Part shown: piece by piece, positions 3,026-57,041 of the stretch
Layout: the number at the start of each line of letters is the position of its first letter
How positions within the stretch are numbered: the stretch's first letter is position 1
NCBI GenBank assembly: GCA_022791135.1
Contig: JAAVYM010000051.1
Coordinates: 1 to 64,000, forward strand
DNA from: Oscillibacter sp.
GTDB lineage: Bacteria > Bacillota > Clostridia > Oscillospirales > Oscillospiraceae
Direction: 5' to 3'
Length of the DNA: 64,000 nucleotides
Made by a program: the position numbers and the translations under genes
Notes under the pieces: generated by a model
The model's input: only the letters and a program-made list of their open reading frames with translations
Told to the model about the DNA's origin: nothing
Databases searched by the model: none

Positions 3026-3394
3026 TTAGCCGGCCGTCAGCACGCCGGTGAGGTCCACGGGCTTGCCGTCGGACCACAGGCGCTCTAAATCGTAAAACTC
3101 CCGGGCCTCCTGGGAAAACACGTGAACCGCCAGGCAGCCGTAATCCAGCAGCACCCAGGTGCCGTCCCGGTGGCCCTCCCGGTGGAGGGGGGCTTCTCCG
3201 GCCTGCTCTTTCAGCGCCTTCTCCACCGCGTCGCACAGGGCGTTGATCTGCGTGTTGGAGGTGCCGGTGGCAATGACGAAGTAGTCCGCCAGGGTGGTCA
3301 GGTCTGTGATCTCCAGGGCGGAGATCTCCTTTCCCTTCTTCTCGTCCAGGGCCTTGGCCGCGATAATTGCCAGCTCTTTCGGTGTCATAGACAT
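3026..3394 (-). CDS. rsfS: Ribosome silencing factor RsfS
   Basis: 122-residue RsfS/Iojap family protein. It binds ribosomal protein uL14 and blocks subunit joining when nutrients are short. Typical motifs are LADYFVIATG (about 35-44) and the W-V-LLDYG segment (about 80-86), followed by HVF and a C-terminal YDLERLW. The ATG at 3394 has an AGAGAGG ribosome binding site; a longer frame reaching 3799 runs through the low-complexity tail of the neighbouring gene on the same strand and is rejected. It lies just downstream of the LCP gene and nadD-yqeK, the usual Bacillota order nadD-yqeK-(lytR)-rsfS, and is probably cotranscribed with them. Confidence 0.95.
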   Translation of the reverse strand: MSMTPKELAIIAAKALDEKKGKEISALEITDLTTLADYFVIATGTSNTQINALCDAVEKALKEQAGEAPLHREGHRDGTWVLLDYGCLAVHVFSQEAREFYDLERLWSDGKPVDLTGVLTAG

Positions 3395-3425
3395 GCCTCT
3401 CTTTCCAAAATATGTGTGAATGCCA

Positions 3426-5027
3426 TCAGGCGCTGGGGGGAGGCTCGATGATGACAAATCCGGGGTCCGACGGCTCCTGCGGAGCTTCCGGAACCGGCGG
3501 AACCTCCGTCCCGGCAGGGTTCTGGCCGGAGTCGCCGGGAAGCGCGGGGTCTTGCCCCCCGGAGCTTTCCCCGCCGGGGTTCTCCGGCGGGGGAGGTTCC
3601 GCCGTGCCCGGACTCTCCGGAAGCGCGGCGGTCCCGCCCTCCGGCGGGGCGGAGGCCCCGCCTGTCCCGGGAGGCGAGCCGCCAGGACTTTCCGTCCCGC
3701 CCCCGCTTTCCCCACCGGCGGGGTCTGTGACAAGCGGCTCCCCAGTCTCCGGATCCAGGGGCAAGCCCGTCTCCGGGTCAATAGGATTGCCATTTTCATC
3801 CACGACAGGTTCTTCCTCCTCCGGCTCGGGCTTCGGAGGCGGAACAGCCGCCCGCTTATCCTCCACGTAGCCCGTGGAGGAGCTGAGGCTCCCGTCGGCG
3901 TTGACGGACATGATATCCAGGTCCGACAGGGTGAACACTTCCTTAAACGGGCTGAGTTCGTTGTTCACCAAATCCAGCAGCTTCCTGGCGTTGGGCATCA
4001 CATAGCCCTGCGTCCCATAGCTCCTGCTGTAGACGTCATCTTTAAGATAGTGGGGCATGGTGATGAAGTTCACATCCTCCATCTTCAAGCCTCCCATCAC
4101 CGCCGACTTGCCGAACCAGAGGATATTCTGGAAGCTCATATCCGTTTCCACGTTTTTATTAAACGCCTCGATCAGCGGGCCGACCTTGGTCATGTTCTTC
4201 GGTTGCAAAACCTGTTCCGCCATGGCCTTCAAAAACGCCTGCTGGGTCTTAATGCGGCCCACGTCGCCCTCGGGATAGCCCAGCATGACGCCGTTTTTCC
4301 TGTTGTCGTGGCGGTAGCGGAGGACCTGCATGGCGTCGTCCCCAGAGAGGAGGCGGTAGCCCTTCGTCTGATGGATATGGAGGTCCTGGTACGGGTCGTC
4401 GTAGTTCATATCCCGGGGCACGTCGAAGTATACGCCGCCGATGGCGTCCACGATCTCTCCGACAGCCTCCCACTCCACGACCACCTGAAAGTCCGGCTCG
4501 AAACCCACCAGCTGGGCGATCTCCTTGTAAAGATGCTGCATGCCCTTCTCGCCGCCGCCGTAGCCGTTGTAGACGCTGTTGAGCTTCTTGACGTCCCAGG
4601 GGACGTTGACCATGGTGTCCCGGGGAATCGACATGACGGTGGCCTTCTGGTTTGTGACGTCGTAGCTTGCCAGCAGCATCGTGTCTGTCAGGCCGCCGCC
4701 GCCGGTGTCCCGGCCCAGGATCAAGACCGTCCAGTAGTCCTCACTCTTGCGCTCGCCGTCGCCGCCCCGGGGGCGGATGCCGTCGCCATAGTCGATGGCC
4801 TCCGGGCCGTCCGGATTGCCGTCGCCGTCCAGGTCGGCGTTTTTATTCGGATTGTTCCGCACCGGAATCTCCGGACGGACAAACAGGCTCCGGACCGCCA
4901 GCGCCGCCGCCAGCACTACCGCCAGCACCGCGACGATAACAAGCAAAATGATCTGCTGGCGGGTCAGCCTGCCCTTCCTGGGCGGTTTCTGACCGGAGGC
5001 CAGGCGCTTTCCAATTTCTTTGCTCAT
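3426..5027 (-). CDS. LytR-CpsA-Psr (LCP) family cell-wall glycopolymer transferase
   Basis: LCP proteins transfer teichoic acids or other anionic glycopolymers from a lipid carrier to peptidoglycan on the outer face of the membrane. Seen here: a basic N terminus, one membrane helix (about residues 20-45), a linker with a DxDGDGxPDG stretch, the LCP domain (about 80-330, including LILGRDTGGGG, MSIPRDT and a VLRYRHD segment), then a tail of about 130 residues rich in Pro, Gly and Glu. The tail suggests a flexible wall-spanning segment. Start ambiguity: ATG 5027 is preferred (upstream GAGAGA), while ATG 5042 would overlap the nadD-yqeK stop as ATGA and allow coupling. The position between nadD-yqeK and rsfS is conserved in Clostridia. 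Confidence 0.9.
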   Translation of the reverse strand: MSKEIGKRLASGQKPPRKGRLTRQQIILLVIVAVLAVVLAAALAVRSLFVRPEIPVRNNPNKNADLDGDGNPDGPEAIDYGDGIRPRGGDGERKSEDYWTVLILGRDTGGGGLTDTMLLASYDVTNQKATVMSIPRDTMVNVPWDVKKLNSVYNGYGGGEKGMQHLYKEIAQLVGFEPDFQVVVEWEAVGEIVDAIGGVYFDVPRDMNYDDPYQDLHIHQTKGYRLLSGDDAMQVLRYRHDNRKNGVMLGYPEGDVGRIKTQQAFLKAMAEQVLQPKNMTKVGPLIEAFNKNVETDMSFQNILWFGKSAVMGGLKMEDVNFITMPHYLKDDVYSRSYGTQGYVMPNARKLLDLVNNELSPFKEVFTLSDLDIMSVNADGSLSSSTGYVEDKRAAVPPPKPEPEEEEPVVDENGNPIDPETGLPLDPETGEPLVTDPAGGESGGGTESPGGSPPGTGGASAPPEGGTAALPESPGTAEPPPPENPGGESSGGQDPALPGDSGQNPAGTEVPPVPEAPQEPSDPGFVIIEPPPSA

Positions 5028-6628: not shown

Positions 6629-6812
6629 ACGCTCCTCCGGCGCCGCCTTCCGCGCCGCCTTTCCTTTCTGTTTTTCCGCTCAGCCGTCTAATGGTAACCA
6701 TCAAAAACCCCTTTGGCTTCTCGGAGGGTCTACACACTCCCGTCCCGTTCTATCAGATAAGCGCCACACTCTTCGCTGCGGCGAAGCGCGCCGCGCCGCC
6801 TAGTTCCGACGC

Positions 6813-7409
6813 CTATTTTTGGAGATAAGTTCCCAGCTTCTCCGCAAACGCCGCCAAGGCCTTTCCCCGGTGGGAGATGGCGCTCTTCTCCTCGGCACTG
6901 AGCTGTCCGAAGGTCTTCCCCTTCTCCGGAACCAGGAACACCGGATCGTAGCCAAAGCCGCCGTCTCCCATGGGCGCAAAGGCGATGGCCCCGTCACAGC
7001 GGCCCTCCGCCGTCAGCGTGTCCCCGTTGGGGAAGGCGCAGGCCACGGCACAACTGAAATGGGCCGCCCGGGTGGTCTGGCCCCGCATGCCGCTCAGCAG
7101 CAGCATGTACCGTCCCCGGTCGTCCAGGTCCTCCCCGCCGTAGCGGGCGGAATACACGCCGGGGCCGCCATTCAGCGCATCCACGCACAGCCCGGAGTCG
7201 TCCGCGATGGCGGGCAGACCCGCGGCGGCGCAGACGGCCTTGGCCTTCAGCATGGCGTTTTCCGCGAAGGTGGAACCGGTCTCCTCCACCTCCACGTCCG
7301 CCCCCGCCTCGGCGGGGCTGATGACCTCCACGCCCAGGCCGGACAAAATTGCCTTCATTTCTGCCAGCTTCCCGGCGTTGTGAGTCGCCAGAACAAATTT
7401 TTCACTCAT
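6813..7409 (-). CDS. rdgB: XTP/dITP diphosphatase (RdgB/HAM1)
   Basis: 198-residue house-cleaning pyrophosphatase that hydrolyses XTP, dITP and ITP so that they are not built into nucleic acid. Diagnostic features: LATHNAGKLAEM at the N terminus, ADDSGLCVDALNG with the metal-binding Asp pair, PGVYSARYGGE, FGYDPVF, and SHRGKAL near the C terminus. Its ATG overlaps the rph stop by 4 nt (ATGA), so translation is coupled; rph-rdgB is a classic Bacillota pair. Confidence 0.96.
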   Translation of the reverse strand: MSEKFVLATHNAGKLAEMKAILSGLGVEVISPAEAGADVEVEETGSTFAENAMLKAKAVCAAAGLPAIADDSGLCVDALNGGPGVYSARYGGEDLDDRGRYMLLLSGMRGQTTRAAHFSCAVACAFPNGDTLTAEGRCDGAIAFAPMGDGGFGYDPVFLVPEKGKTFGQLSAEEKSAISHRGKALAAFAEKLGTYLQK

Positions 7410-45530: not shown

Positions 45531-46187
45531 TTATATCTCCAGGCGGTAGCCCACCTTATAGACCGCCACCAGCCGGTTTTCCAGCCCCAGCTTTCTCCGC
45601 ATCCGCTGGATATGAAGGTCCACCGTCCGGCTGTCTCCCAGGAACTCCTCTCCCCAGACCTTTTCGTAAATGCGGTCCCGGTAAAGGGCGATGTTCTTGT
45701 TCTGCACAAAGAGCAGCAGCAGGTCATACTCCTTGGCGGTCAGCGCCACGGGAACGCCGTTTTTCCGCACAACGCGGCTGGCCGTGTCGATTTCGATGTC
45801 CGGCGGCAGGGTGAGGACCCGCCCCGTCTTCCCGCAGCGGCGCAGGACGGTCTCCACCCGCGCCAGCAGCTCCATCAGTTCAAAGGGCTTGACAATATAG
45901 TCCTCCGCCCCCAGGCGGAGGCCCTTCACCCGCTCCTCCAGCTGCCCCTTGGCGGTGAGGAAGATCACGGGGACCTCCAGGCTCTTGCAGTACTCCAGGA
46001 CCTCATATCCGTCGGCCTTGGGCAGCATGATGTCCAGCAGCGCCAGGTCGAAGGGCCGTGACTCCAGCAGATCCGCCGCCGCCCCGCCGTCGGCGGCCCA
46101 GGCGCAGCGGTAGCCCGCCCCCTCCAGGGCGGTCCGGATGAGGTTGGCGATGGGGGCCTCATCCTCGGCGATCAAGATCTTGTTCAT
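45531..46187 (-). CDS. OmpR/PhoB family response regulator
   Basis: 218 residues: receiver domain (IAEDEAPIANL acidic pocket, LLDIMLPKADG with the phospho-Asp about 52, FLTAKG, VKPFELMELLARV) and a C-terminal winged helix (about 125-216; LTAKEYDLLLLFVQN, a DRIYEKVWGEEF region, VDLHIQRMRRKLG). The ATG has GGGAGG 9 nt upstream. First gene of the operon regulator-kinase-unknown-VanY; its promoter in the 46188-46417 gap was not recognised by eye. Confidence 0.95.
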   Translation of the reverse strand: MNKILIAEDEAPIANLIRTALEGAGYRCAWAADGGAAADLLESRPFDLALLDIMLPKADGYEVLEYCKSLEVPVIFLTAKGQLEERVKGLRLGAEDYIVKPFELMELLARVETVLRRCGKTGRVLTLPPDIEIDTASRVVRKNGVPVALTAKEYDLLLLFVQNKNIALYRDRIYEKVWGEEFLGDSRTVDLHIQRMRRKLGLENRLVAVYKVGYRLEI

Positions 46188-46417
46188 AAAGGCTGCCTCC
46201 CTCGATTTCGAATCGGTTCCAAAACCGGCGGAACGCCGGGGCGGGGCGGATAATCCCCCCAGGCGGATTGCAGGCCGGAACCGTCAAAGCACCGGCGAAG
46301 CGGCGTCCGGCGGGGTTCCGGTCAGACGTATACCCGCATAGGAGTCTGCCATAGTTTGCCGTCATTTTTGCATCACAGGTCCCATCGGAGGGCCAACGGC
46401 ACCTGTGCCGGAAAAAC

Positions 46418-46451
46418 AGCGCCGTCAGGACCATTCATTCCTGACGGCGCT
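46418..46451 (-). terminator. Terminator of the FapA-family gene
   Basis: 13-bp perfect stem (46418-46430 with 46439-46451), followed on the minus strand by GTTTTTCC, 25 nt after the stop codon. Confidence 0.88.
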
Positions 46452-46475
46452 TCGCCGCGCAAAGCGGATAGAACC

Positions 46476-48065
46476 CTATTTTAACAATATCCGGTTTTCC
46501 TCAACATGGATGTTGCAGTTTTCCTCGATCGTGGTAATTTCCTCCGTCAGCCGGCCGATCTGGACATCCAGAAACGGGTGCAGCTTCTCGCACCGTATGC
46601 GCCCCCTGCTCTTCCTGTCCAGCGCCCGGTTCACAATTTTCAGCTCCGCCGCCAGGGCTTCCCGCCGCTCGATATAGAGTTCCCGCTGTTCCATGAGCCG
46701 TTCCAGCAGCGTTTTCTCCTCGTCTGAAATTCGGTTGCCCTTCCTTTTCAAGAGGACAATGGGGTCCCACAGCTTTTCAAAGGTCGACTGCACCTCTGCC
46801 AGTTCCTCTTTAATCCGCTTCCACGACTCCGGAATGTGCGGGGGATAGCCCACCGAAAACTGGCTGCGGCCCCCCGCCAGGTTTCCAATCCGCAAGCACA
46901 GGATGCTGTCTCCCGCCCGTATCAGGCTGTCCACAATCATCCCGCGCCCGCTCATAACGTAAACCGTACCGCCGCAGTGGATTGTGCTGTTCAGGATTGT
47001 CTCCGCGATTACGCTGGTCCCGGCCTCGACCTCCGCTCCCTCCAGCGCGGGGGACTGCACCTGACAGGCCGCTGATAAAGCGGTCTTTCCCCTGGTTCCA
47101 TAAATGCCTTTTTGAACCCGGATGGTCCCGCCTGTAGACGTCACGCGGGCCTGCCCGATTTTCCCGTTGATTACGACATCGCCCGAAGCCACCACATCGA
47201 CTCCGCCGTCTACGTTCCCGCCTATATAGAGATTGCCCGAAATTTGTAGCGTCCCCTGGAAGTTGTCCAAATCGCCGTCGATAATCTTCTGCTCATGAAT
47301 GCAGAACCGGTCGTTTTCAATATAGAGGATTCCGTCCACGCTCGCCGTGAGCGCCTGTCCGCCCCGCTCAATGGCGGTGTGTTCCCCCTGGGGCACAAAG
47401 GCGCTGACAGCCTCCGGGCAAGGAAGCTCCTGCCCCGTTACGTCCATGCCGTTCATCCCCGCCCGCGGGGGCCTTATCAGGCAGATGGCGGTTCCTTTTC
47501 GGATGGGCTGAAGCTGGACATCCTGCCCAAAATCGACCTGGCTGCCATCCTGCACCTCCAGGCGCATATTTTTGCGCCGTTGGAAAAGTTCTGTTACCTT
47601 TCCATCTTCTCCGGCCTGGGGCGGCTTCCCCCGCGCCACGGGGAATATGTGAAGATACCCAAGCGCGAACTCCCTCTGAATTTCGTCCTCCAAAACGCCG
47701 TAACTGATGCCCTCGTAATACATATCCCCCAGAAACTCCTCCAGGGTGATCTCTTCCCCGTCGTTCTCCGGCGGAATCAGGCATGCATAAGCGCTCATCC
47801 GGTCCTTCGACAAGAAAAACCTCGCTTCGGCTTTTATGGAATCCGGCCTGTCCAGCGCCTTTTTATACCGGGTCCTGCACACTTCCTTCAAAGCCCAGAC
47901 AAAATCCTCCACGGTTTCGCCGTCATCCGGATATTGCGCTTTCGCCTCTTTGCCAGTTGCATCCAGCGCTGAAAACATCTTCCTGTAAGGAGTGGAGGGA
48001 AACGATTTCTTTTCCTGCTCGCCTGTTCCTTTTGGAACAAAACGATCAAAAATCGACACAGTCAT
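46476..48065 (-). CDS. FapA (DUF342) family protein
   Basis: 529 residues. An N-terminal segment (about 1-150), then the DUF342 beta-helix: LQPIRKGTAICLIRPPRAGMNGMDVTG, repeated ISGNLYIGGNVDGGVDVVASGDVVI and GKIGQA turns (about 180-400), and a C-terminal coiled coil (about 405-510; EELAEVQSTFEKLW, AALAAELKIVNRALD). The family is widespread in Bacillota and Proteobacteria, often near motility or polar-localisation genes; activity is not established. ATG 48065 (AAAAGG at 6 nt) is preferred to TTG 48083. Monocistronic with its own promoter and terminator. Confidence 0.85.
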   Translation of the reverse strand: MTVSIFDRFVPKGTGEQEKKSFPSTPYRKMFSALDATGKEAKAQYPDDGETVEDFVWALKEVCRTRYKKALDRPDSIKAEARFFLSKDRMSAYACLIPPENDGEEITLEEFLGDMYYEGISYGVLEDEIQREFALGYLHIFPVARGKPPQAGEDGKVTELFQRRKNMRLEVQDGSQVDFGQDVQLQPIRKGTAICLIRPPRAGMNGMDVTGQELPCPEAVSAFVPQGEHTAIERGGQALTASVDGILYIENDRFCIHEQKIIDGDLDNFQGTLQISGNLYIGGNVDGGVDVVASGDVVINGKIGQARVTSTGGTIRVQKGIYGTRGKTALSAACQVQSPALEGAEVEAGTSVIAETILNSTIHCGGTVYVMSGRGMIVDSLIRAGDSILCLRIGNLAGGRSQFSVGYPPHIPESWKRIKEELAEVQSTFEKLWDPIVLLKRKGNRISDEEKTLLERLMEQRELYIERREALAAELKIVNRALDRKSRGRIRCEKLHPFLDVQIGRLTEEITTIEENCNIHVEENRILLK

Positions 48066-48145
48066 CTCCTGCCTTTTCTCCAAATCTTGTATGGATACCC
48101 GCTTCCTGCAAGCTGCGGCAACCTGCTCCCATATTCAGTTTTTAC

Positions 48146-48174
48146 ATTGTATCATTCTTACGGAAAATTATCAA
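48146..48174 (-). promoter_or_regulatory. Sigma-A promoter of the FapA-family gene
   Basis: Minus-strand TTGATA (48174-48169), 17-nt spacer, TACAAT (48151-48146). Confidence 0.75.
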
Positions 48175-48424
48175 GTATTATTCCACCATCGCTTTCTGTC
48201 TTTCCCGGGACATGATTTTCCATCCTGCCGGGGCCGGAAATCCGGCTTTTTTGTATTGCCGGAGGGCTTCCCCGTTCCCCCGTGTCCGGCGGACTACCGT
48301 CCAGGGACGGTATGGATAACCTGCATAGCAGTTTTAGGCCTCGGGAAACCCGCCCTGGCAAGCGGCGCAACACCGCGGACTCATGAGAGCGCTGTTCCAC
48401 TATCCGGAGTACGCCGCATATGAG

Positions 48425-48462
48425 AACGCTCCCCCGCATTCCGGAAAATGCAGGGGAGCGTT
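48425..48462 (-). terminator. Terminator of the thioredoxin-rhodanese operon
   Basis: 16-nt arms with one mismatch (48425-48440 and 48447-48462). It resembles the terminator at 35613-35644 (shared GCTCCCC-GCATT core), which also closes a thioredoxin operon. Confidence 0.75.
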
Positions 48463-48546
48463 TTGGGACCTTTTCGCCTTGCCGCAAGCCGCAGCGAGTC
48501 CTGCCGGGCAAACGCCCTCGCCGCCATGCCGGAAGGGGCGCGCCTT

Positions 48547-48867
48547 TCAGCGTTCTACCTCTCCCGCGTAGGCGGCGATGCCGCCAATGTTTTTCGCATT
48601 CACATAGCCCATCTGAGCCAGCAGCTCCACCGCCTGGCGGCTTCTCGCGCCGCTATGGCAGTAGACGAACAAGGGCGTATCCTTCCCGGCGGGGACGCTT
48701 TCCTCCCCACCCAGGGATTGCAGAGGCGCGTTGATGCTGCCGGGGATATGGCCCTCCCGGTATTCCTGCGGCGTGCGCACGTCCAGCAGAACCGCACCGG
48801 GAACCGCGTCATATTCTGCGACGCCTTGGTTAATATCGGGGCCTTTTAAAAAATCGAGAAATCCCAT
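48547..48867 (-). CDS. Single-domain rhodanese
   Basis: 106 residues: AVLLDVRTPQEYREGHIPGSINAPL and the active loop CHSGARSRQAV, where the cysteine carries a persulfide. Such proteins move sulfane sulfur between donors and acceptors. It is 12 nt after thioredoxin copy 2. In the other thioredoxin operon the same function is present as the C-terminal domain of the CoADR-RHD protein, so each thioredoxin copy is paired with one rhodanese. Confidence 0.94.
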   Translation of the reverse strand: MGFLDFLKGPDINQGVAEYDAVPGAVLLDVRTPQEYREGHIPGSINAPLQSLGGEESVPAGKDTPLFVYCHSGARSRQAVELLAQMGYVNAKNIGGIAAYAGEVER

Positions 48868-48879
48868 AGCGGCGCCTCC

Positions 48880-49185
48880 TTACAGCAGGGCGAGAATCTG
48901 GCTCTTGGGCCGCGCGCCTACCGCCTGATTCACGACCTTGCCGTCCTTCATCACCACCAGGGCCGGAATGCTCATCACGCCGAACCGGCCTGCCAGCTCC
49001 GGCTGTTCGTCCACGTTGACCTTTCCCACCTTGATGTCGGGCCGCTCCGCCGCGATCTCCTCCACCACAGGGGCCACCATGCGGCACGGTCCGCACCACG
49101 ACGCCCAGAAGTCCAGTAAAACGGGGCGGTCCGCCTTCAAAACTTCCTCCTGAAAATTTACCTGAGTGATGTTGACAACAGACAT
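48880..49185 (-). CDS. trxA: Thioredoxin, copy 2
   Basis: 101 residues with WASWCGPCRM, 93 of 101 residues identical to copy 1 at 37358-37663. Differences cluster at the ends (positions 4, 9, 16, 18, 20, 75, 84, 92). DNA identity is nearly complete through the middle and into the sequence just after the stop codon. GGAGGA precedes the ATG. It is cotranscribed with the rhodanese and probably with the ferredoxin pair upstream (142 nt gap). Confidence 0.96.
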   Translation of the reverse strand: MSVVNITQVNFQEEVLKADRPVLLDFWASWCGPCRMVAPVVEEIAAERPDIKVGKVNVDEQPELAGRFGVMSIPALVVMKDGKVVNQAVGARPKSQILALL

Positions 49186-49327
49186 GATTCGTCCTCCTTA
49201 TCATATGTTATAACTCTATGATGCCCAAAGCCTCGCCCTTATTTCGTAATAATAGGAATACTGCTATTGGATTGAAGCCGGTTTGCCCGCCGCTGTAACC
49301 GGTGGCAAGCGCAGAACACGGCGGATA

Positions 49328-49933
49328 TCACTTCTGAACTTCAAGTTCGCAAGCAACCTTCTCCTCCCGGTTTTTGACCTTGCAAATCAGCTGCGTCATG
49401 GTTCCCATGGGGCAGTAAACGCACCAGCTGCGGGGCTTGAACAGGACCATGGTGATTAAACCGAGAACTGTGGAAGTCAGCATGACGCTGTAAAATCCGA
49501 AGGCAAACTGCGCCACGCCCGGGTGGAGCCACGTTCCGTGATAAGCCCAGTTCCACGGCAGCTTCCATGTCCAAAGCAGGGTTACGGCCTGCTTCAACTC
49601 CCGGGTCCCTGCAAAGACCAGATAGGTGTTCCAGAGCATCTGAAAGAACATGATGAAGAAGAAAATCAAAAACCCATAACGGAACGCCTTGCTCTTCATC
49701 CACTTCGGAATATCCTTTTTTCGGGACAGGCCGAACCGGCCGCCCAGCAGGGCGAAGAGCTGGCCTCTGCCGCAGTAGCGGTTGCAATAACCTTTCGTTC
49801 CGCCGGCAATGGAGATAATCAGCGGAATGAAGAAGCACAGCAGACCCGCCCACGCAAACAGGATATTGAAAAATCCCAGGAGCAAATAGGTCAATGAAAC
49901 TATCCAGAGTTCATCATACCAATGCTTCTTCAT
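49328..49933 (-). CDS. Membrane protein with two cysteine motifs, NapH/NosR-like 4Fe-4S binding
   Basis: 201 residues with about four or five membrane helices. It has a cytosolic CNRYCGRGQLF motif after helix 2 and a C-terminal WCVYCPMGTMTQLIC motif, the CxxC-x-G pattern of the polyferredoxin/NapH/CcoG-like membrane group. It may pass electrons between the soluble ferredoxin encoded upstream and the membrane. Its ATG overlaps the ferredoxin stop by 4 nt (ATGA). In-frame codons before 49933 belong to the ferredoxin region and are not used. Confidence 0.85.
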   Translation of the reverse strand: MKKHWYDELWIVSLTYLLLGFFNILFAWAGLLCFFIPLIISIAGGTKGYCNRYCGRGQLFALLGGRFGLSRKKDIPKWMKSKAFRYGFLIFFFIMFFQMLWNTYLVFAGTRELKQAVTLLWTWKLPWNWAYHGTWLHPGVAQFAFGFYSVMLTSTVLGLITMVLFKPRSWCVYCPMGTMTQLICKVKNREEKVACELEVQK

Positions 49934-50142
49934 GCCTGCACCTCCTGAATGGCAATGACGGACGCGGGACATTCCCTCGCACATTTCCCGCACCCCACGC
50001 AGCGCTCCCGGTCAACCCTGGCCGCAACGCCCCTGAAAACGGAGATGGCTCCAAACGGGCACACCTTCACGCAGCAGCCGCAGGCAACACAGGAATCCGC
50101 GTCAACAAACGCCTTCCGCTTTTTTCTTGTTTTCGTTTCCAT
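49930..50142 (-). CDS. 2[4Fe-4S] ferredoxin-type protein
   Basis: 70 residues with two clusters: CVACGCCVKVCPFG and CVGCGKCARECP, the full eight-cysteine CxxCxxCxxxCP pattern. A small electron carrier in the cytosol. AGGAGG lies 8 nt before the ATG; a longer upstream frame is rejected because it is Cys/Arg-rich non-family sequence crossing the promoter. First gene of a probable redox operon: ferredoxin, Fe-S membrane protein, thioredoxin, rhodanese. Confidence 0.92.
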   Translation of the reverse strand: METKTRKKRKAFVDADSCVACGCCVKVCPFGAISVFRGVAARVDRERCVGCGKCARECPASVIAIQEVQA

Positions 50143-50170
50143 GCAATGACCTCCTGGATTTGATGAGGCT

Positions 50171-50212
50171 ATGATACCGGAAAAGGCCCCTTGCTGCTGT
50201 GATAAAGTCACA
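50171..50212 (-). promoter_or_regulatory. Crp/Fnr-type operator and -10 element upstream of the ferredoxin operon
   Basis: TGTGATAAAGTCACA (50198-50212) is a TGTGA-N5-TCACA palindrome. It shares the right half and flank (GTCACAAAGA) with the site before trxA copy 1. A minus-strand TATCAT -10 box lies at 50176-50171, giving a palindrome centre about 41 nt before the predicted start, the same geometry as the other site. Confidence 0.75.
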
Positions 50213-50261
50213 AAGACACGCCCGGCAAACCTGACGCCGGAGCCTGGCCGCCAACAAGGAC

Positions 50262-50299
50262 AAAAACTGCGCCGGCAGGAGCGAGAACTCCAGCCGGCG
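50262..50299 (-). terminator. Terminator of the methylase/TRD-MazF operon
   Basis: Perfect CGCCGGC stem (50270-50276 with 50293-50299) with inner GGAG/CTCC pairing, followed on the minus strand by CAGTTTTTG. It closes the two-gene unit. Confidence 0.8.
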
Positions 50300-50411
50300 T
50301 GTGTTTTCAGCCGCTTCATCCAGTTTCGGCAGGGCTTCCCCGGCGAAATGCAGGCAGAAAAGCGTTTTTTTGCCGGATATCCTCCAAATAGCACTCCAGC
50401 TTGCCCGCATT

Positions 50412-50759
50412 TCAGGCCACTTCCAACTGATGCCGGATTGCCTGTTCAAGCTCCGCCATTTTCTCAGAATGCATCAGGGTCCCCACCCGAAAGCACAGGC
50501 GCGCCTTAGACACGGTGGTCAGCTGTTCCGCCAGGGCAACGCTCTCCTTCCTCAGCCCAAACCCGGAAACCGGCACATGGCATCGCATGGGCGGCTTCGC
50601 GGAAGAGGTCAGCGGCACCACCGTGACGATGCCTGAGCCGCGGTTGGTCTGGTCGCTGCTGACAATGATCACCGGATGCTGGCCCCGCAGTACGTTCCCC
50701 TCGCCCCAACGCAGGTTGGCTATCCAGATATCACCCCTGCGCGTGCTGATTTTTTTCAT
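50412..50759 (-). CDS. MazF/PemK family endoribonuclease toxin
   Basis: 115 residues of the MazF/CcdB fold: RRGDIWIANL, GQHPVIIVSSDQTN with the conserved Arg just before (RGQHP), VVPLTSS with the catalytic-type Thr/Ser, LRKESVALAEQLTTV and a C-terminal helix. Active members cut mRNA at short sites. The ATG overlaps the stop of the upstream gene by 4 nt. No small MazE-like antitoxin gene is present on either side; the only partner is the 591-residue methylase-like/TRD protein. The key residues look intact, so it is probably active. Confidence 0.9.
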   Translation of the reverse strand: MKKISTRRGDIWIANLRWGEGNVLRGQHPVIIVSSDQTNRGSGIVTVVPLTSSAKPPMRCHVPVSGFGLRKESVALAEQLTTVSKARLCFRVGTLMHSEKMAELEQAIRHQLEVA

Positions 50760-52531
50760 AAGGTGTCCTCCAATCCGATTTTTTGATAAAAACGTTCATA
50801 AGCCCGCTCCCTTGACGCATTCACCGCCGCGAGCTGCTCTTCAAGCAAGATGTTCGCTTCACGGAGTTCAGCCGCGTACTGTGTTTGTTGTGCAAGCGGG
50901 ATATAATGGAGCGGCAGGCGCTCCAAATCCGCCGCCCGGATCATGGTGATGCTGCTTCCCATCTGGATTTGCTGGATCGCCTGTTGTCCGGCGGGACTTT
51001 GCAGAAAGTAAAAGAGATACCAGGGGTTCGCCTTGGCGGGGTCCGGGCGGATTCCCAAAAAATCGTGGGAGAGAAGAGGAGACTCCTTCTCGGACACGAC
51101 GCACAGCTTAATCGCCTTCCCCTTACAGGAAATCAAGATGTCGCCCTTGTGAATCCGATACCGCTCCTGCTTGGTGCGGTCCGGAAGCTCATAGCGGGCG
51201 ACGCCGTCCATACGGATACGGCCTTCCTGAACGTCGGACAGGCGCAGCACCTCCACTCCCTCGCCGCTGCGGGAAAAGGCCGCGACATTGATCCCCCGGT
51301 AAATCTGTGCCACGTCCTTCATCTGCACCGCCTTGCGGGACAGGCCCCCCCCCTCCGCCACTTCGCCGGCACAGGGAAGCGGCGGCCCGTCACTCTGCCG
51401 GGGCCAGGACAGATACCGCTGGGGCGAGAGGTTCGACGCGTCCAGCTCCGAGGGAGGAACCTCCCTGCTGTTTTCCCACACGATGGGAAGGACGCTCTTC
51501 CCCGCGCCAGCCAGCGTGCGAAGGGGGCTGCCCTTTGCCCTCAGCTGGCTGGATTCGGGTAGCTCCGCCATCTGCACTGCGTCATCTTTCTTGCGTCCCC
51601 TGCGAAAAACCACCAGCGAGGTCGACGGTGCCGAAGGCGTAAACGGCAGGCTGCTTTTCGGCAGAGCGATGACGGCGTCCACCACGTTTCGCTTCAGCAG
51701 GTATTCGCGAAAGCGGCGGTTTTTGGCGTTAAACAGCGCCCCGTTGGAAATCCGGCAGACGCCGGCCCCGTTTTCGTTCAGCGCGCAGAGCTGGTGATAC
51801 GCGTAAGCCCAGTCGCTGCCGCAGGTGAGCGAATCGGAAATCCTGACCGGTTCTCCGCCCCGCAGCGGCGGAAACATGATAGAAAAATCTGCTTTTACAG
51901 GCGCTTTCCCATCGCGCAGGCAGTCCGTATTGTACTGTTCAAATTCAAAACCGTACATGCTGGCGAGAAGCACGGAGAGGTGGAAGAGTCCGGGGTGCTC
52001 CTCACAGGTAACGACCCGAAGGGGAATCCCCCACTCCCGTCTTTGCCTGGCAATCTCGAACGCCGGCCCGCACACGCCGCTGGCGCCGCTGTAAAACGTC
52101 CCTTCCCCGGCCGGCAGCAGTTCAACCGCAAGGCGTTCCAGCCAGGCCGGAACCGCTATATAGGGCCAAGAAGCCCTGGTGAGAAAGGGGTATATCATTC
52201 GCTCGATCAGGCGGAGGAGACGGTTCTTGTCCCCACTGAACTTCACCCAGTGAAAAAAGAGGTCCTGAAATCCGTGCTCCCCCAACCGAACCTGGGAAAA
52301 TCCCCGGAAGGCCGCCTCTGCCTGGCGGCTTCTCCGCTCCAGGCAGAGGCAAATCGCGTCCTCGAAATCCTGCTGCCGGACCGTTCCGGCGGAAAGTTTT
52401 CTGATGGTCTTCGCATCCAAAAACCAAAATCCGATGCAGAGCGAAATAGACTGAACGAGCGTATCCCCCGCAGCGTAGCCCCTGGCATGGCTCAGCATCT
52501 CGTAGATGGGATCGGAAATGTTAAGCGGCAT
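50756..52531 (-). CDS. Degenerate N6-adenine methylase-like protein fused to a type I specificity (TRD) domain
   Basis: 591 residues. Residues about 1-340 follow a type I HsdM-like methylase: N-terminal helices, a motif I-like FYSGASGVCGP (usual: DPACGSGG), CEEHPGLFHLSVLLASMYG (matching the E-x-AxMNLxLHG helix), and a motif IV position reading FSIMFPPLRG. The catalytic Asn/Asp-Pro-Pro-Phe/Tyr is replaced by Phe-Pro-Pro-Leu, so methyl transfer is probably lost. NGALFNAKN and VVDAVIALP are still HsdM-like. Residues about 395-590 are one HsdS target-recognition domain with the closing coiled coil (DLERLPLHYIPLAQQTQY). ATG 52531 has GAGGT upstream; TTG 52540 is less likely. No restriction subunit gene is present. 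Confidence 0.85.
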   Translation of the reverse strand: MPLNISDPIYEMLSHARGYAAGDTLVQSISLCIGFWFLDAKTIRKLSAGTVRQQDFEDAICLCLERRSRQAEAAFRGFSQVRLGEHGFQDLFFHWVKFSGDKNRLLRLIERMIYPFLTRASWPYIAVPAWLERLAVELLPAGEGTFYSGASGVCGPAFEIARQRREWGIPLRVVTCEEHPGLFHLSVLLASMYGFEFEQYNTDCLRDGKAPVKADFSIMFPPLRGGEPVRISDSLTCGSDWAYAYHQLCALNENGAGVCRISNGALFNAKNRRFREYLLKRNVVDAVIALPKSSLPFTPSAPSTSLVVFRRGRKKDDAVQMAELPESSQLRAKGSPLRTLAGAGKSVLPIVWENSREVPPSELDASNLSPQRYLSWPRQSDGPPLPCAGEVAEGGGLSRKAVQMKDVAQIYRGINVAAFSRSGEGVEVLRLSDVQEGRIRMDGVARYELPDRTKQERYRIHKGDILISCKGKAIKLCVVSEKESPLLSHDFLGIRPDPAKANPWYLFYFLQSPAGQQAIQQIQMGSSITMIRAADLERLPLHYIPLAQQTQYAAELREANILLEEQLAAVNASRERAYERFYQKIGLEDTL

Positions 52532-52554
52532 GGAACTCAACCTCGATTCAAAAT

Positions 52555-52626
52555 AGTAATCTAATTATTCTTTATGGATTCAGTATAGCACGTCCGCCGA
52601 AAATGTCAAGAGTAATTTAATTATTC
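52555..52626 (-). promoter_or_regulatory. Promoter of the methylase/TRD-MazF operon flanked by two 16-nt repeats
   Basis: Minus-strand TTGACA (52609-52604), 16-nt spacer, TATACT (52587-52582). The plus-strand repeats AGTAATCTAATTATTC (52555-52570, in the leader) and AGTAATTTAATTATTC (52611-52626, just upstream of -35) differ at one base and bracket the promoter, 56 nt apart. Each has an imperfect dyad. This is the layout of a paired operator for an autoregulator. Confidence 0.8.
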
Positions 52627-52679
52627 GAAAATTTTTGTTTCAGCTGCCCATGCCTTTTCCGGTCAGGGACAGCATGCCA

Positions 52680-53924
52680 TTAGTCCGGCCCTGCATTTAG
52701 CAGCGCCACAGACACGTCGTTGACGTTAGTCCCTGTCGGCCCGGTCATCACCAGGCCGCCCACGGCCTTCAACGCGTGGTAGGCATCGTTCTCCCGCAGA
52801 ATCCGGGCAACATCCATCCCCCTGGACGCTAAGTCCGCCAGTGTCTCGCCATCCACGTAGCCCCCGGCAGCGTCGGTGGGGCCGTCGGTCCCATCGCTGC
52901 CCACGGAGAACACCGCCGCGCCGGGAATTCCCGCAATCCCCGGCGCCGCCGCCAGAGCCAGCTCCTGGTTCCGTCCCCCCAGGCCCTTGCCCGTGAGGCG
53001 GACTACCGTCTCGCCCCCGGCAACGAAGGCCAAGTTCCGGCGATCCCCTTCGTGGGTCTTCAATATACTCGCCAGGAAGCTCCCGGCCTCCCGGGCCTCA
53101 CAGCAGAGTCTGTCCGTCAGGAGCACCGGCTCGTAGCCCAAGGCCCGGCACCGCCGCATTGCCGCCGCGCAGAGTTCCCGGACGCTGCCGGTGATGTGCG
53201 CGGCGGCGTTGGGCAGTTCCTTCGGCGTCTCCCGCTTCAGCAGCGCCCAGGCCTCTCCAGACAGGTTCAGGCGGTATTTCTCCGCCGCCGTCAGGGCCTG
53301 GGCACAGGTGGATGCGTCCGGCCAGGCCGGGCCGCTGGCGATCATGTCCAGCGGGTCCCCCAAAATATCGCTGAGAACAATGCTGAACACCCGCGCCGGG
53401 GCGCAGGCCAGGGCGAACCGCCCGCCCTTCACGCCACTGAGCCGCTTGCGGATGACGTTCATCTCCACAATGTCCGCGCCAGAGGCCAAAAGCTGACTTG
53501 TGACATCCCGCAGTTCCTCCGCGGGGATCAGGGGCCGTTCGAAGAGGGCACTGCCGCCGCCGGAGAGAAGAAACAACACAGAGTCCTCCGCCGTCAACCC
53601 CTTTACCAGCTCCAGGGCCTTTGCGGTGGCAGAAAAACCGTTCTCATCGGGGACCGGGTGTCCCGCCTCGCAGCACAAAACGCCGGGAATCTCCCCTTTG
53701 ACATGGCCGTACTTCGTCACCACGATGCCGCCGTCCAGGCTGTCCAGAACCTCCTCCGCCGCCCTGGCCATTTGCCACGCGGCCTTCCCGGCGGCTACCA
53801 GCAGGACCTTTCCCCTCCCCGGCTGGAAATCCTTCAGCGCCCGGCGGACCGCCTCGTCAGGCAGGACCGCCTGTAGGCTGAAGGAAATGATTTCATCTGC
53901 GTCTCTTCGCATTTTCCGATTCAT
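52680..53924 (-). CDS. Glycerate 2-kinase (DUF4147/MOFRL family)
   Basis: 414-residue enzyme of the GckA/TtuD class, which phosphorylates D-glycerate to 2-phosphoglycerate. Seen: VLLVAAGKAAWQMARAAEEVL, IVVTKYGH, GHPVPDENGFSAT, VLFLLSGGGSAL (phosphate loop), IRKRLSGVKGGRFA, VLSDILGDPLD, and a C-terminal MOFRL part with GGRNQELAL, FSVGSDGTDGPTDAAGGYVD and GPTGTNVND. ATG 53924 is chosen because family similarity begins there. Monocistronic as far as seen. Confidence 0.94.
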   Translation of the reverse strand: MNRKMRRDADEIISFSLQAVLPDEAVRRALKDFQPGRGKVLLVAAGKAAWQMARAAEEVLDSLDGGIVVTKYGHVKGEIPGVLCCEAGHPVPDENGFSATAKALELVKGLTAEDSVLFLLSGGGSALFERPLIPAEELRDVTSQLLASGADIVEMNVIRKRLSGVKGGRFALACAPARVFSIVLSDILGDPLDMIASGPAWPDASTCAQALTAAEKYRLNLSGEAWALLKRETPKELPNAAAHITGSVRELCAAAMRRCRALGYEPVLLTDRLCCEAREAGSFLASILKTHEGDRRNLAFVAGGETVVRLTGKGLGGRNQELALAAAPGIAGIPGAAVFSVGSDGTDGPTDAAGGYVDGETLADLASRGMDVARILRENDAYHALKAVGGLVMTGPTGTNVNDVSVALLNAGPD

Positions 53925-54039
53925 CCCGACATCCCCTTTCCCCTGATTCCGCAGCACTCTTTGTATATTAACCCGAAAAGCCAAAAGGCGCAAGACGCAT
54001 CCGGCATTTCTCCCGGCAGCGGGCAAAACGGCTCAAAGC

Positions 54040-54083
54040 AAATGGCATGATTCCCGTGACTCAGCACAGGAATCATGCCATTT
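54040..54083 (-). terminator. Terminator of htpG
   Basis: 15-bp perfect stem (54040-54054 with 54069-54083) with a 14-nt loop, A/T-rich at its base. Confidence 0.85.
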
Positions 54084-54127
54084 TGATGCCGCTTCTTCCT
54101 GCGGTCCGCCTCAGCGCCGGAGGACGC

Positions 54128-56011
54128 TCACTTCATTAACCCGCACACCAAATCCGTGTACCCGGAAGGATCGTCCAGGGGCAGACCCGCAATCAGCAGC
54201 GCCTGATTGTACAGCAAGGAGGCGTAAGTCTTCGCCTTTTCCGGGTCCGCCTCCACGGCGGCCTCCAGAGCCTGGAAGGCCGGGTGCTCCACATTCAGCT
54301 CCAAGATCCGCTCCGCCTTGATGGCCGCGTCGGGCTGGACGGCCTGGAAATACTTCTCCATCTCGAAGCTCAGGCCCTCTCCGGCGGTGAGGCACACCGG
54401 GTGGGACTTCAGCCGGGCGGAGGCCCGGACCTCCTTCACCGCGCCGCCCAGGGTCTCCTTCACGAAATCAAAGGTCTCCTTGTGGGCCTCGGCCTCTTCC
54501 TCGGCCTTCTTCTCCGCGCCCTCTTCCAGCTCCTGGTCCAGCACGGAGCGGAACTCCTTGTCCTTATAGGTCCGCAGGGTCTGGGCGCAGAACTCGTCCA
54601 CCTCCTCGGTGAAGTAGAGGATTTCCGTTCCCGCGTCCCGCAGGCCCTCGGTTTGAGGAAGCTTATCGATCTTATCCGGAGACTCGCCCGCGGCGTAGTA
54701 AATATACTTCTGCTCCTCCTTCATCCGGGAGACGTACTCATCCAGGGTGACGGGCTTCTTCTCCGTGGAGGAGTAGAACAGCAGCAGGTCCTGGAGCAGC
54801 TCCTTGTGCCGCCCATACTCGTTCACCACGCCGTACTTGAGCTGACGGCCGAAGTTCTTCCAGAATTTCTGATAGCCCTCCCGGTCCTCCGCCAGGAACT
54901 TGCCCAGGTCCGCCTTGATTTTCTTCTCCAGGTTCCCGGCAATGACCTTCAGCTGCCGGTCGTGCTGCAAAAGCTCCCGGGAGATGTTCAGGCTCAGGTC
55001 CGGGGAGTCCACCACGCCGCGGACAAAGCGGAAATGCTCCGGCAGGAGGTCCGCGCACTTGTCCATAATGAGCACCCCGTTGGAGTATAGCTGGAGGCCC
55101 TTTTCAAACTCCTTTGTATAGTAGTCAAAGGGCGTGGCTCCGGGGACAAAGAGCAGGGCCTTATAGGTGATGCTGCCCTCCACGGAGACGGGGACGCAGC
55201 GCTGGGGATCGGCATAATCGTGGAACTTGTCCCGGTAGAACTTGTAGTACTCCTCCTCCGTGACTTCGGATTTCGCCCGCTGCCAGATGGGCACCATGGA
55301 ATTCAGGGTTTCGACCTCCGTATAGGTCTCGTACTCCGGCTTATCCTCCGGGGAGTCCTCCTTCTTCCGGGTCTTGCTGACCTCCATGCGGATGGGGAAG
55401 CGGATGTAGTCGGAATACTTCCGCACCAGCTCCTGAAGCCGCCAGGACTCCAGGAATTCCCCGTACTTCTCCTCATCGGTATCCGGCTTGATGTGCATGA
55501 TGATGTCGGTACCTACGGTTTCCTTTTCGCACTCGGTGACGGCGTACCCGTCGGCCCCGGAGGACCGCCACTGCCAGGCGCCCTCCCCACCGTATTTCTT
55601 CGTCACCACGGTAATCTGATCGGAGACCATGAAGGCGGAGTAGAAACCCACGCCGAACTGGCCGATGACGTCGGTGTCCTTGGCGTCGTCGCCCAGCTCC
55701 TGCTTGAACTTATAGGACCCGGAGGAGGCGATGACGCCCAGGTTATTTTCCAGATCCTCCTTGTCCATGCCGATGCCGTTGTCGGAGACGGTAAGGGTCC
55801 GGGCGTCCTTGTCCACGGTGATTTCAATCTTGAAATCACCCCGGTCCATGCCCACGGCGTCATCCGTAAGGGCCTGGTAGCAGAGCTTGTCGCAGGCGTC
55901 GCTGGCGTTGGAGATGATCTCCCGGAGGAAGATCTCCTTATGGGTGTAGATGGAGTTGATCATCAAATCCAACAAACGCTTGGACTCCGCCTTGAATTGT
56001 TTCTTAGCCAT
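54128..56011 (-). CDS. htpG: Molecular chaperone HtpG (Hsp90)
   Basis: 627-residue Hsp90: N-terminal ATPase domain with FLREIISNASDACDKL, DNGIGM, and the QFGVGFYSAFMV glycine-rich lid region; middle domain with FVPGATPFDYY and RGVVDSPDLSLNISRE (catalytic Arg nearby); C-terminal dimerisation domain. It supports folding of client proteins under stress in the cytosol. GGAAGT precedes the ATG. No CIRCE element was found upstream; a TATATT -10-like box is present near 56060. Confidence 0.97.
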   Translation of the reverse strand: MAKKQFKAESKRLLDLMINSIYTHKEIFLREIISNASDACDKLCYQALTDDAVGMDRGDFKIEITVDKDARTLTVSDNGIGMDKEDLENNLGVIASSGSYKFKQELGDDAKDTDVIGQFGVGFYSAFMVSDQITVVTKKYGGEGAWQWRSSGADGYAVTECEKETVGTDIIMHIKPDTDEEKYGEFLESWRLQELVRKYSDYIRFPIRMEVSKTRKKEDSPEDKPEYETYTEVETLNSMVPIWQRAKSEVTEEEYYKFYRDKFHDYADPQRCVPVSVEGSITYKALLFVPGATPFDYYTKEFEKGLQLYSNGVLIMDKCADLLPEHFRFVRGVVDSPDLSLNISRELLQHDRQLKVIAGNLEKKIKADLGKFLAEDREGYQKFWKNFGRQLKYGVVNEYGRHKELLQDLLLFYSSTEKKPVTLDEYVSRMKEEQKYIYYAAGESPDKIDKLPQTEGLRDAGTEILYFTEEVDEFCAQTLRTYKDKEFRSVLDQELEEGAEKKAEEEAEAHKETFDFVKETLGGAVKEVRASARLKSHPVCLTAGEGLSFEMEKYFQAVQPDAAIKAERILELNVEHPAFQALEAAVEADPEKAKTYASLLYNQALLIAGLPLDDPSGYTDLVCGLMK

Positions 56012-56114
56012 TGCTCGTTTGCACTTCCTTTAAACAAATTTTTAACAACATTAAAATATAGCACAGCCCCCATGGAAAATAAATGACCATTTTGTAAATT
56101 TACGCCCAAAGCGG

Positions 56115-56143
56115 TTGTTTGTCCGCCCGGTTGCGAGTAGAAT
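56115..56143 (+). promoter_or_regulatory. Sigma-A promoter of the zinc-ribbon membrane protein gene
   Basis: TTGTTT (56115-56120), 17-nt spacer, TAGAAT (56138-56143). Confidence 0.55.
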
Positions 56144-56182
56144 ATAAAAAAACCGGCGGGACCGGCAAAGGAGTTCAAGCAT

Positions 56183-56614
56183 ATGGGCTTTTTTCAGAGA
56201 ATCAACGGTGCCCTCGCCCGCTTCATGTATGGGCGCAATGGGTGGGACCAGCTGAATCAGGCGCTCTTCCGGGGCTACTTAATTTTGTGGATTGCGGAGA
56301 TTATCCTCTTCTTCCTGCACAAGGGGATGGCAGTCCGGTTTCTGCAGGGCGTGCTGCTCTTCCTGATGATAGCGATTTTCTTCCGCTGCTTTTCCAAAAG
56401 CCTCTCCCGCCGCCGGGCGGAGAACCAGAAGTGGGTCAATTGGTACTGCGGAGTCAAAAACCGCAGCGCCGGGGCCAAAGCCCGCCACGCCGATAAGGAG
56501 CACAAATACTTCACCTGCAAGAACTGCAAGGCTATCTGCCGGGTGCCGGTGGGAAAAGGAAAAATCGTCATCACCTGCCCCAAATGCGGCGCGCAGATTC
56601 AGGCGAAGAGCTGA
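56183..56614 (+). CDS. Small two-helix membrane protein with C-terminal zinc ribbon
   Basis: 143 residues: N-terminal amphipathic segment, two membrane helices (about 28-47 and 50-68), a basic linker, then a zinc ribbon with CKNC and CPKCG pairs (about 112-137). Proteins of this shape are frequent in Oscillospiraceae with no assigned role. AAAGGAG lies upstream of the ATG. The four-Cys ribbon is near a classic RNA or protein-binding type, but no activity can be claimed. It is followed at 19 nt by a possible 24-residue peptide. Confidence 0.75.
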   Translation: MGFFQRINGALARFMYGRNGWDQLNQALFRGYLILWIAEIILFFLHKGMAVRFLQGVLLFLMIAIFFRCFSKSLSRRRAENQKWVNWYCGVKNRSAGAKARHADKEHKYFTCKNCKAICRVPVGKGKIVITCPKCGAQIQAKS

Positions 56615-56632
56615 GAAAGGGGTATATAAAAG

Positions 56633-56707
56633 ATGGGCATTGTTTGGTTTTGCATCGTCTGCTGTTTTATCGCGGTCTACGCAAGCGCAAAAACGAAGAG
56701 TTCATGA
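56633..56707 (+). CDS. Possible 24-residue hydrophobic peptide
   Basis: ATG 56633 to TGA 56705, starting MGIVWFCIVCCFIAVY and ending KTKSS: one short membrane helix with a basic tail. AAAGGGG lies about 11 nt upstream. It follows the zinc-ribbon membrane gene in the same transcript. The evidence is only composition and the ribosome binding site, so it may be chance. Confidence 0.3.
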   Translation: MGIVWFCIVCCFIAVYASAKTKSS

Positions 56708-56783
56708 GTGCAGAGCTTGACTCCTTTTGCGAGGGGAGGTTTGCAAGCGCCCGTTTCTCTTTCGACGCTTTTGTGAACAGTAG

Positions 56784-56818
56784 AAAAAGGCCGGGGACAC
56801 AAGTCCTTCGGCCTTTTT
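56784..56818. terminator. Bidirectional terminator
   Basis: 10-bp perfect stem (56784-56793 with 56809-56818) with inner GGAC/GTCC pairing and T-tract, between the rightward membrane gene and a leftward XRE gene. Confidence 0.88.
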
Positions 56819-57041
56819 ATGCTCTTGGAAACCGGCGGCGTTCATCTGAGACACCACAGATATAGTCCATGCTGACATCGTAATATTTCGCTAACACGAT
56901 GATGCTGTCCAACGGGATGCGGGTCTTACCCAGCTCGTAATCCGAGTACGTTCTCTGCTCCACATGGAGCATCCCCGCCGCAAATGTTTGTGTCAGGCCC
57001 CGGTCTTCCCGCAAGGCGCGTATCCGCTCGGCATATGGCAT
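56817..57041 (-). CDS. Small XRE-family helix-turn-helix regulator
   Basis: 74 residues, nearly all one HTH_3 domain: RIRALREDRGLTQTFAAGMLHVEQRTYSDYELGKTRIPLDSIIVLAKYYDVSMDYICG. Typical of stand-alone clostridial regulators of unknown target. GAGAGG abuts the ATG. It lies 87 nt downstream of a second small XRE gene in the same direction, so the two may be cotranscribed. Confidence 0.88.
   Translation of the reverse strand: MPYAERIRALREDRGLTQTFAAGMLHVEQRTYSDYELGKTRIPLDSIIVLAKYYDVSMDYICGVSDERRRFPRA

Follow-up and report, generated by a model that had tools for sequence, protein, structure and literature searches.

The window analysed here is a 64,000-nucleotide stretch (positions 1 to 64,000, forward strand) of contig JAAVYM010000051.1 from the Oscillibacter sp. 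draft genome GCA_022791135.1 (2.55 Mb, 84.5% complete). Its subject is a two-gene operon in which a methylase-like protein, composed of a type I restriction-modification (R-M) HsdM part and one target-recognition domain (TRD), is followed by a MazF toxin. The features of the operon are:

50756..52531 (stop included), minus strand: degenerate HsdM-TRD fusion, 591 amino acids (aa), from open reading frame (ORF), Pfam and AlphaFold model
51407..52150, minus strand: HsdM-type methylase fold, residues 128-375
52070..52093, minus strand: altered motif I, residues 147-154 (YSGASGVC; the motif reads SGASGVCG)
51863..51874, minus strand: degenerate motif IV FPPL, residues 220-223 (FPSL in the ortholog L096)
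50897..51331, minus strand: single TRD, residues 401-545
50780..50896, minus strand: long C-terminal helix of the AlphaFold model, residues 546-584, presumed to serve dimerisation
50412..50759, minus strand: MazF/PemK toxin, 115 aa, from its ATGA overlap with the fusion and Pfam
50767..50771, minus strand: Shine-Dalgarno sequence GGAGG of mazF, read from the sequence, 7 nt before the MazF ATG
52582..52609, minus strand: promoter TTGACA-16-TATACT, matching 11 of 12 consensus positions
52611..52625, no strand: palindrome AATAAT-TAA-ATTACT, putative operator 1, directly 5' of the -35
52555..52569, no strand: palindrome AATAAT-TAG-ATTACT, putative operator 2, 3' of the -10
50260..50299, minus strand: intrinsic terminator, a hairpin at 50270-50299 with a T-rich tail

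The fusion ORF runs from an ATG at 52531 to a stop at 50756; a start at the in-frame TTG that lies three codons earlier would make it 594 aa long. Its stop and the MazF start overlap in the tetranucleotide ATGA. Over 4 kb there are 2 promoter-like sites, where shuffled sequence has 0.7 on average. The terminator hairpin (-26.5 kcal/mol, z -4.84, 0 of 200 shuffles equally low) is followed by the tail CAGTTTTTG and is not among the terminators of a rule-based scan. Inspection of positions 46000-57000 by eye revealed no HsdR-like or MazE-like ORFs, no adjacent HsdS and HsdR, and no mobility genes. The first-pass annotation had described a unit of promoter, 591-residue protein, MazF gene with 4-nt overlap and terminator, with neither a restriction subunit nor MazE beside it; each of these elements is confirmed, and the pair is supported as a closed toxin unit.

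Elsewhere in the draft genome, contig C99 carries a separate type I system with its own NPPF-containing HsdM, HsdS and HsdR, and holds the only HSDR_N match; a 440-aa extra gene lies between its HsdM and HsdS. The annotation had held that an unconserved MazF pairing, or an intact methylase with an HsdR elsewhere, would reduce the unit to an R-M remnant next to a stray toxin; neither is seen, the HsdR on C99 having its own HsdM and HsdS.

The 115-aa protein belongs to a recognised toxin family of type II toxin-antitoxin (TA) systems (Pfam PemK_toxin, E 1.2e-22). Its adjacent partner is conserved: the ATGA overlap is kept in L096 (fusion 57% and MazF 65% identical), and two further fusions are paired with MazF. 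The AbrB-type MazE that defines MazEF proper has no match in a Pfam scan of the fusion. Because no MazE is seen nearby and the only MazE-family match of the draft genome lies on contig C12, the fusion is the best candidate antitoxin. Contigs C63 and C64 hold another full MazF and a partial MazF match. Thr48 and Arg25 are residues with roles in Bacillus subtilis MazF. The former is kept in the window protein as Thr51, and the position of the latter is occupied by His28, as it is in L096; the MazF proteins of L097 and L098 keep Arg there.

The Pfam scan of the fusion returns N6_Mtase (2e-7, residues 239-331), one Methylase_S match (1.7e-6, residues 454-555) and no helix-turn-helix (HTH) family. 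The AlphaFold model, which covers a single chain and used a 10-row alignment, shows an HsdM fold followed by a single TRD and one long helix at the C-terminus. Structure comparison by VIA-align recovers the HsdM fold, aligns the N-terminal helices with HsdM chains, and gives close matches to 7eew and to the Esub1 chains 8vsq and 8vsr. At the catalytic motif IV, [ND]PP[FY], the window protein reads FPPL and its ortholog FPSL. The HsdM layout, the FPPL, the altered motif I and the single HsdS-type TRD had all been proposed from the sequence and are borne out. The best reading of the ancestor is a fused type I methylase, HsdM with half an HsdS, and the window protein has very probably ceased methylating. 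Assignment to the MAD5 family (MADS) was rejected at 54 bits against NCBIfam MADS5, for which the cut-off is 400.

The loss of the catalytic motif, noted earlier for the window protein, proves to be family-wide. The strict form [NDS]PP[FYW] is absent from 30 of 32 aligned fusions, the exceptions being L100 (NPPF) and L102 (SPPF), and a pattern search finds it in 12 of 12 HsdM neighbours, a set that includes the neighbour of L007 and leaves out the truncated-looking one of L008. L007 itself has no TRD and reads NDPPY. A looser form, [NDS]xP[FYW], which resembles Erm/KsgA rRNA methylases, is seen by eye in 11 of the 32: in 7 of 12 R-M-linked fusions, 1 of 10 toxin-linked fusions (L103) and 3 of 10 others. 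This distribution looks as if catalysis decays after toxin uptake. The window branch and most toxin-linked fusions look catalytically dead, because the strict motif is lost, even the 57% identical ortholog differs, and only one toxin-linked member in ten keeps the looser form. These patterns leave it very improbable that the protein still methylates, as an orphan or type IIG-like M.S enzyme with the palindromes as its targets and the toxin a stray neighbour. The retained HsdM fold, the motifs of L100 and L102 and the looser form, above all among the R-M-linked fusions, would suit such an enzyme; the FPPL and FPSL, the contrast with the HsdM neighbours and the near absence of the looser form from toxin-linked members would not, and a palindrome with two exact genome sites, both at the promoter, would be an odd methylase substrate.

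Two results go beyond the first-pass annotation: the promoter palindromes are paired, and the fusion belongs to a family whose members have exchanged partners. Profile searches, with the own genome counted, find full-length fusions in 4 of 345 genomes of the order, 6 of 391 of the class and 13 of 398 of the phylum, which named relatives indicate to be Bacillota, and a later profile search at E <= 1e-90 finds them in 8 of 225 genomes. Many matches of the class and phylum searches were dropped as plain HsdM with coverage ending near 400. At least 62 loci were matched among named relatives, and neighbourhoods were examined for ten of them (L096-L105); L098 is the G188 contig again and is counted once. 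The window protein as a single query has no relatives in genome contigs, viral contigs or phages, and a four-row profile has none in viral contigs. Fusion relatives are present on plasmids, the fusions of L101 and L040 matching 613 and 3282 plasmid records respectively, and the L103 fusion matches 47 phage records, none with 80% coverage.

The 32 aligned fusions divide into 10 that adjoin a recognised toxin, 12 that adjoin type I R-M genes and 10 that adjoin neither. R-M linkage in unannotated loci was scored by profile match for HsdM and by eye for HsdS and HsdR. Pfam identifies the toxins as MazF in four loci (window, L096, L097 and L044), TIR in three (L045, L039 and L101), PBECR3 nuclease in L040 (2.9e-21), ParE in L103 (5.2e-14) and MqsR in L041 (2.3e-6), where the toxin gene lies upstream of the fusion. 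The toxin-first order of MqsR-linked units resembles mqsRA. In PADLOC, the best match of the two TIR partners scanned is SpbK (2.7e-26 and 1.9e-15), and the PBECR3, MqsR and ParE partners have no match. The smallest units consist of the fusion and a toxin only. Five loci found after the 32-row set (L181-L185) lie outside its counts: the gene upstream of the L181 fusion is 52% identical to the MqsR-like gene of L041, yet has no Pfam match; L182 and L185 adjoin R-M genes; and L183 and L184 have no recognised partner. L105 and L186 were dropped for their split M and S parts, and G1307 was dropped as M-only.

Conservation of the MazF pairing, on which the earlier proposal had depended, is found in 4 of the 32 aligned fusions, which form one clade of the tree (98/98). 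This clade lies inside a seven-row branch that also contains the R-M-linked L077 and L080 (96/94). The six partner labels need five changes on the tree, the minimum possible, and 0 of 200 shuffles are as low. With the tree unrooted, the simplest reading of this pattern would be the repeated capture of toxins by a protein that was at first associated with R-M genes. Because 12 of the 32 accompany type I R-M genes, the fusion part is not toxin-specific. The earlier idea of a DNA-monitoring antitoxin or toxin-armed module stands in part: it gains from the closed toxin unit and from six more fusions with other toxins, and its sensing of foreign DNA or phage stays hypothetical. The same neighbourhoods bear on the idea of a simple addiction module, with no sensing role, that keeps mobile DNA stable, as type II TA modules commonly do. 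This is considered possible, though on the unlikely side. The occurrence of relatives on plasmids would favour it, though the five plasmid neighbourhoods examined contain no recognised toxin; the 12 R-M-linked members of the 32 point to defence rather than addiction alone, and by eye no mobility genes are seen around the window operon (46000-57000).

Several neighbours of the fusions are of interest in their own right. In one branch, a small gene with an LVGPxPH-like stretch directly follows the fusion, and in three of five cases it precedes HsdM. A Pfam DUF2325 gene before the L004 fusion (3244-3567, 1e-14) resembles these genes by eye. A 125-aa gene that precedes the fusion shares, by eye, a TKHxxDxxxER-like stretch; it has no Pfam match and is a candidate for a further toxin family. 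The genes are:

L082 4491-5018: LVGPxPH-like gene
L083 7187-7597: LVGPxPH-like gene
L085 4521-5081: LVGPxPH-like gene
L089 6738-7268: LVGPxPH-like gene
L043 6345-6698: LVGPxPH-like gene
L080 7568-7945: TKHxxDxxxER-like gene
L183 5925-6302: TKHxxDxxxER-like gene
Upstream of L185 4132: fragment of a TKHxxDxxxER-like gene

Similar genes of 166-171 aa head the fusion-HsdMSR operons of L078 (8213-8713) and L079 (5216-5731). In L084, a 143-aa gene (6747-7178) overlaps the start of a 558-aa fusion, with no R-M genes recognised nearby by eye. The small genes beside the fusions in L078, L080, L081, L084 and L183 have no Pfam match. A 74-aa zinc-ribbon-like protein (L104, 7062-7286; weak Pfam matches, below cut-off) follows a TIR-branch fusion in the position that TIR takes in relatives, and an Eco57I-type methylase gene (L040, 1035-2885) follows the fusion-PBECR3 pair.

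At the window promoter, two ARTAAT-N3-ATTAYT palindromes bracket the -35 and -10 elements at a spacing of 56 bp. Only these two sites in the draft genome match ARTAATN3ATTAYT exactly, and four further sites match with one mismatch. Pairs of this kind also precede homologues in an Oscillibacter metagenome-assembled genome, Neglectibacter, Anoxybacillus, a Salimicrobium plasmid and G1190. L096 keeps the layout operator-TTGACA-TACACT-operator with a spacer diverged from that of the window. The symmetrised pattern AGTAATN3ATTACT (class A), which was fixed after its five loci had been seen, occurs as a pair with up to two mismatches ahead of five units among the 32 scanned, namely those of the window, L096, L097, L099 and L004 (0 of 300 shuffles each). 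A pair is also present upstream of L182, which was found later (0 of 200 shuffles). Across the six class A loci, 12 of 13 matches at up to one mismatch fall in the 200 bp that precede the unit. Two further motif classes, picked after looking, form pairs in L103 and L051 (class B) and in L043, L083, L089 (class C; 0 of 300 shuffles each) and L008 (class C, 1 of 300). None of the three motifs occurs with up to two mismatches upstream of L040, L041, L100, L042, L005, L102, L085 or L007.

In a motif-free paired-palindrome test, which replaced a rougher one (24 regions, 40 shuffles each), p <= 0.05 is reached by 13 of the 31 upstream regions of the family and by 0 of 70 control regions, and p <= 0.10 by 15 of 31 and 2 of 70 (Mann-Whitney 1.2e-5). 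The controls were sampled from the same loci, ahead of other genes that encode at least 200 aa, and not all are intergenic. L045, without a usable upstream, is outside both the motif scan and this test; L007 is in the motif scan and outside the test and the 32-row motif IV alignment.

Across Clostridia and Bacilli, the type of TRD and the palindrome motif go together. In the 11 labelled members, TRDs are 43% identical where the motif is shared and 25% where it differs (permutation p 1.5e-4). When close relatives are compared, the TRD is conserved better than any other domain (4 of 4 pairs), the opposite of what specificity subunits usually show. From these comparisons the TRD seems to read the promoter of its own unit, in an antitoxin-like autoregulation. 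If another cellular regulator bound the palindromes instead, the fusion would be no DNA-binding repressor. This is judged improbable given that the motif follows TRD type, with the caveat of shared ancestry, that the only exact genome copies stand at the window promoter, and that the smallest units contain the fusion and toxin alone.

Taken with the operon architecture, these results make it probable, though well short of certain, that the methylase-derived fusion is both an autorepressor of its own operon and the antitoxin of MazF. The fusion would dimerise through its C-terminal helices, so that two identical TRDs would read the two halves of ARTAAT-N3-ATTAYT as two half-HsdS would. By filling the two operators that flank the promoter it would shut its own operon, and it would counter MazF by direct binding, by transcriptional repression or by both. 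Loss or titration of the fusion would raise MazF, leading to RNA cutting and growth arrest; the trigger may be titration or degradation of the fusion, or its capture by DNA mimics that counter restriction. The homologous fusions of relatives would likewise control their TIR, PBECR3, MqsR or ParE toxins, or an operon of type I R-M genes.

Several observations weigh against this account. DNA binding, repression and toxicity have been inferred, the structural model is of one chain, and His at the Arg25 position may weaken the case for an active MazF. Going by the looser motif IV, some R-M-linked relatives may be active enzymes. Ten of the 32 fusions lack a recognised partner, one of these (L051) lying on a 3.4-kb contig. 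At one mismatch the palindrome has six sites in the genome and a reversed control pattern also has six, so there is no genome-wide excess of ARTAATN3ATTAYT. In the paired-palindrome test, 18 of 31 upstreams fail (p <= 0.05), including the MqsR unit and the two TIR units that could be tested; the failure of L039 may be misplaced, since its called start is doubtful, and a good class B palindrome stands beside a TTGACA near that start. The MazF-linked L044, whose TRD is 66% identical to that of L097, has one class A site with two mismatches and no convincing pair. Classes B and C were chosen after the fact. Members that share a motif are also closer in the methylase domain, by 0.09 compared with 0.18 in the TRD; since this is half the TRD difference, shared ancestry explains part of the link between TRD and motif.

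A less likely variant, though a possible one, holds that the toxin is controlled by transcriptional repression alone and that the fusion never touches MazF. In CreTA, a defence complex reportedly represses a toxin gene. The operator pairs are the strongest regulatory evidence, the fusion also heads R-M operons in which no toxin needs protein neutralisation, and direct binding of MazF, TIR, PBECR3, MqsR and ParE folds by one protein family would be demanding. Against this variant, MazF is coupled to its repressor through the ATGA, so that leaky expression would need neutralising, and the MazF-linked fusions form a single clade, as co-evolution of the two genes would predict.

It is also conceivable, though rather unlikely, that the fusion is a decoy methylase. 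It would retain the surface with which a type I M-S complex binds DNA, without the catalysis, and DNA-mimic anti-restriction proteins of phages or plasmids, such as Ocr and ArdA, which capture such complexes, would strip it from its operators and derepress a guarded effector, which would be an RNase or TIR toxin or an R-M operon. Both contexts would then be explained: in toxin units anti-restriction would set off abortive infection, and in R-M units the arrival of inhibitors would boost restriction. The structural likenesses are only suggestive here. The entry 7eew is titled as a Vibrio vulnificus 'intact MTase' bound to Ocr, and 8vsr, an Esub1 entry like 8vsq, as a co-crystal with a protein named Prx; the crystallised Esub1 chain has no methylase domain.

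Under the favoured account of an autorepressor and antitoxin, the unit resembles type II TA systems (MazEF, MqsRA and ParDE) in its two-gene operon, toxin family and promoter palindromes. It differs in that the partner is a methylase-TRD fusion of about 600 aa rather than a small MazE, MqsA or ParD, and in that one fusion family adjoins five toxin families. Other related systems are the C proteins and the EcoRII, SsoII and Ecl18kI methylases; these methylases repress their own genes through fused HTH repressor domains (PMC12707154, PMC3874152). Here too a methylase polypeptide would repress its own gene, but recognition of the operator would fall to the TRD, and the catalytic motif is gone; the fusion is not an HTH domain joined to an active methylase. 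RptR is a 9-kDa helical repressor that acts at TAGCTA sites in a type I R-M island with DarTG2 (PMC12255303). The likeness lies in an R-M island with a TA system and in the repeated palindromic promoter sites; RptR, as described there, is small, separate and without methylase or TRD, whereas the fusion has 591 aa and its sites read ARTAATN3ATTAYT. In the PrrC/EcoprrI and PARIS systems, a toxic effector is coupled to restriction, and anti-restriction proteins set it free. With PrrC, this effector is a nuclease linked to a type I system, and T4 Stp releases it; the present two-gene unit is without such an effector or ATPase. A dead M-TRD fusion acting as a regulator is absent from the passages compared on EcoRII-type methylases, RptR and PrrC. 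Among the papers listed by full-text search on the pairing or its regulation, none describes the fusion-toxin pairing in its title or abstract, subscription papers and preprints not being covered.

If the favoured account is true, an R-M enzyme has been domesticated into a sequence-reading antitoxin and repressor, with its TRD re-aimed at its own promoter. Its toxin partner would be freely exchanged, and R-M and TA systems would be physically linked. The family would also provide TRDs for which the upstream region may reveal the target, and an inexpensive, concrete test of how cells might detect anti-restriction. With toxins or a DNA-cutting defence system beside its relatives, the fusion suggests a reusable alarm part.

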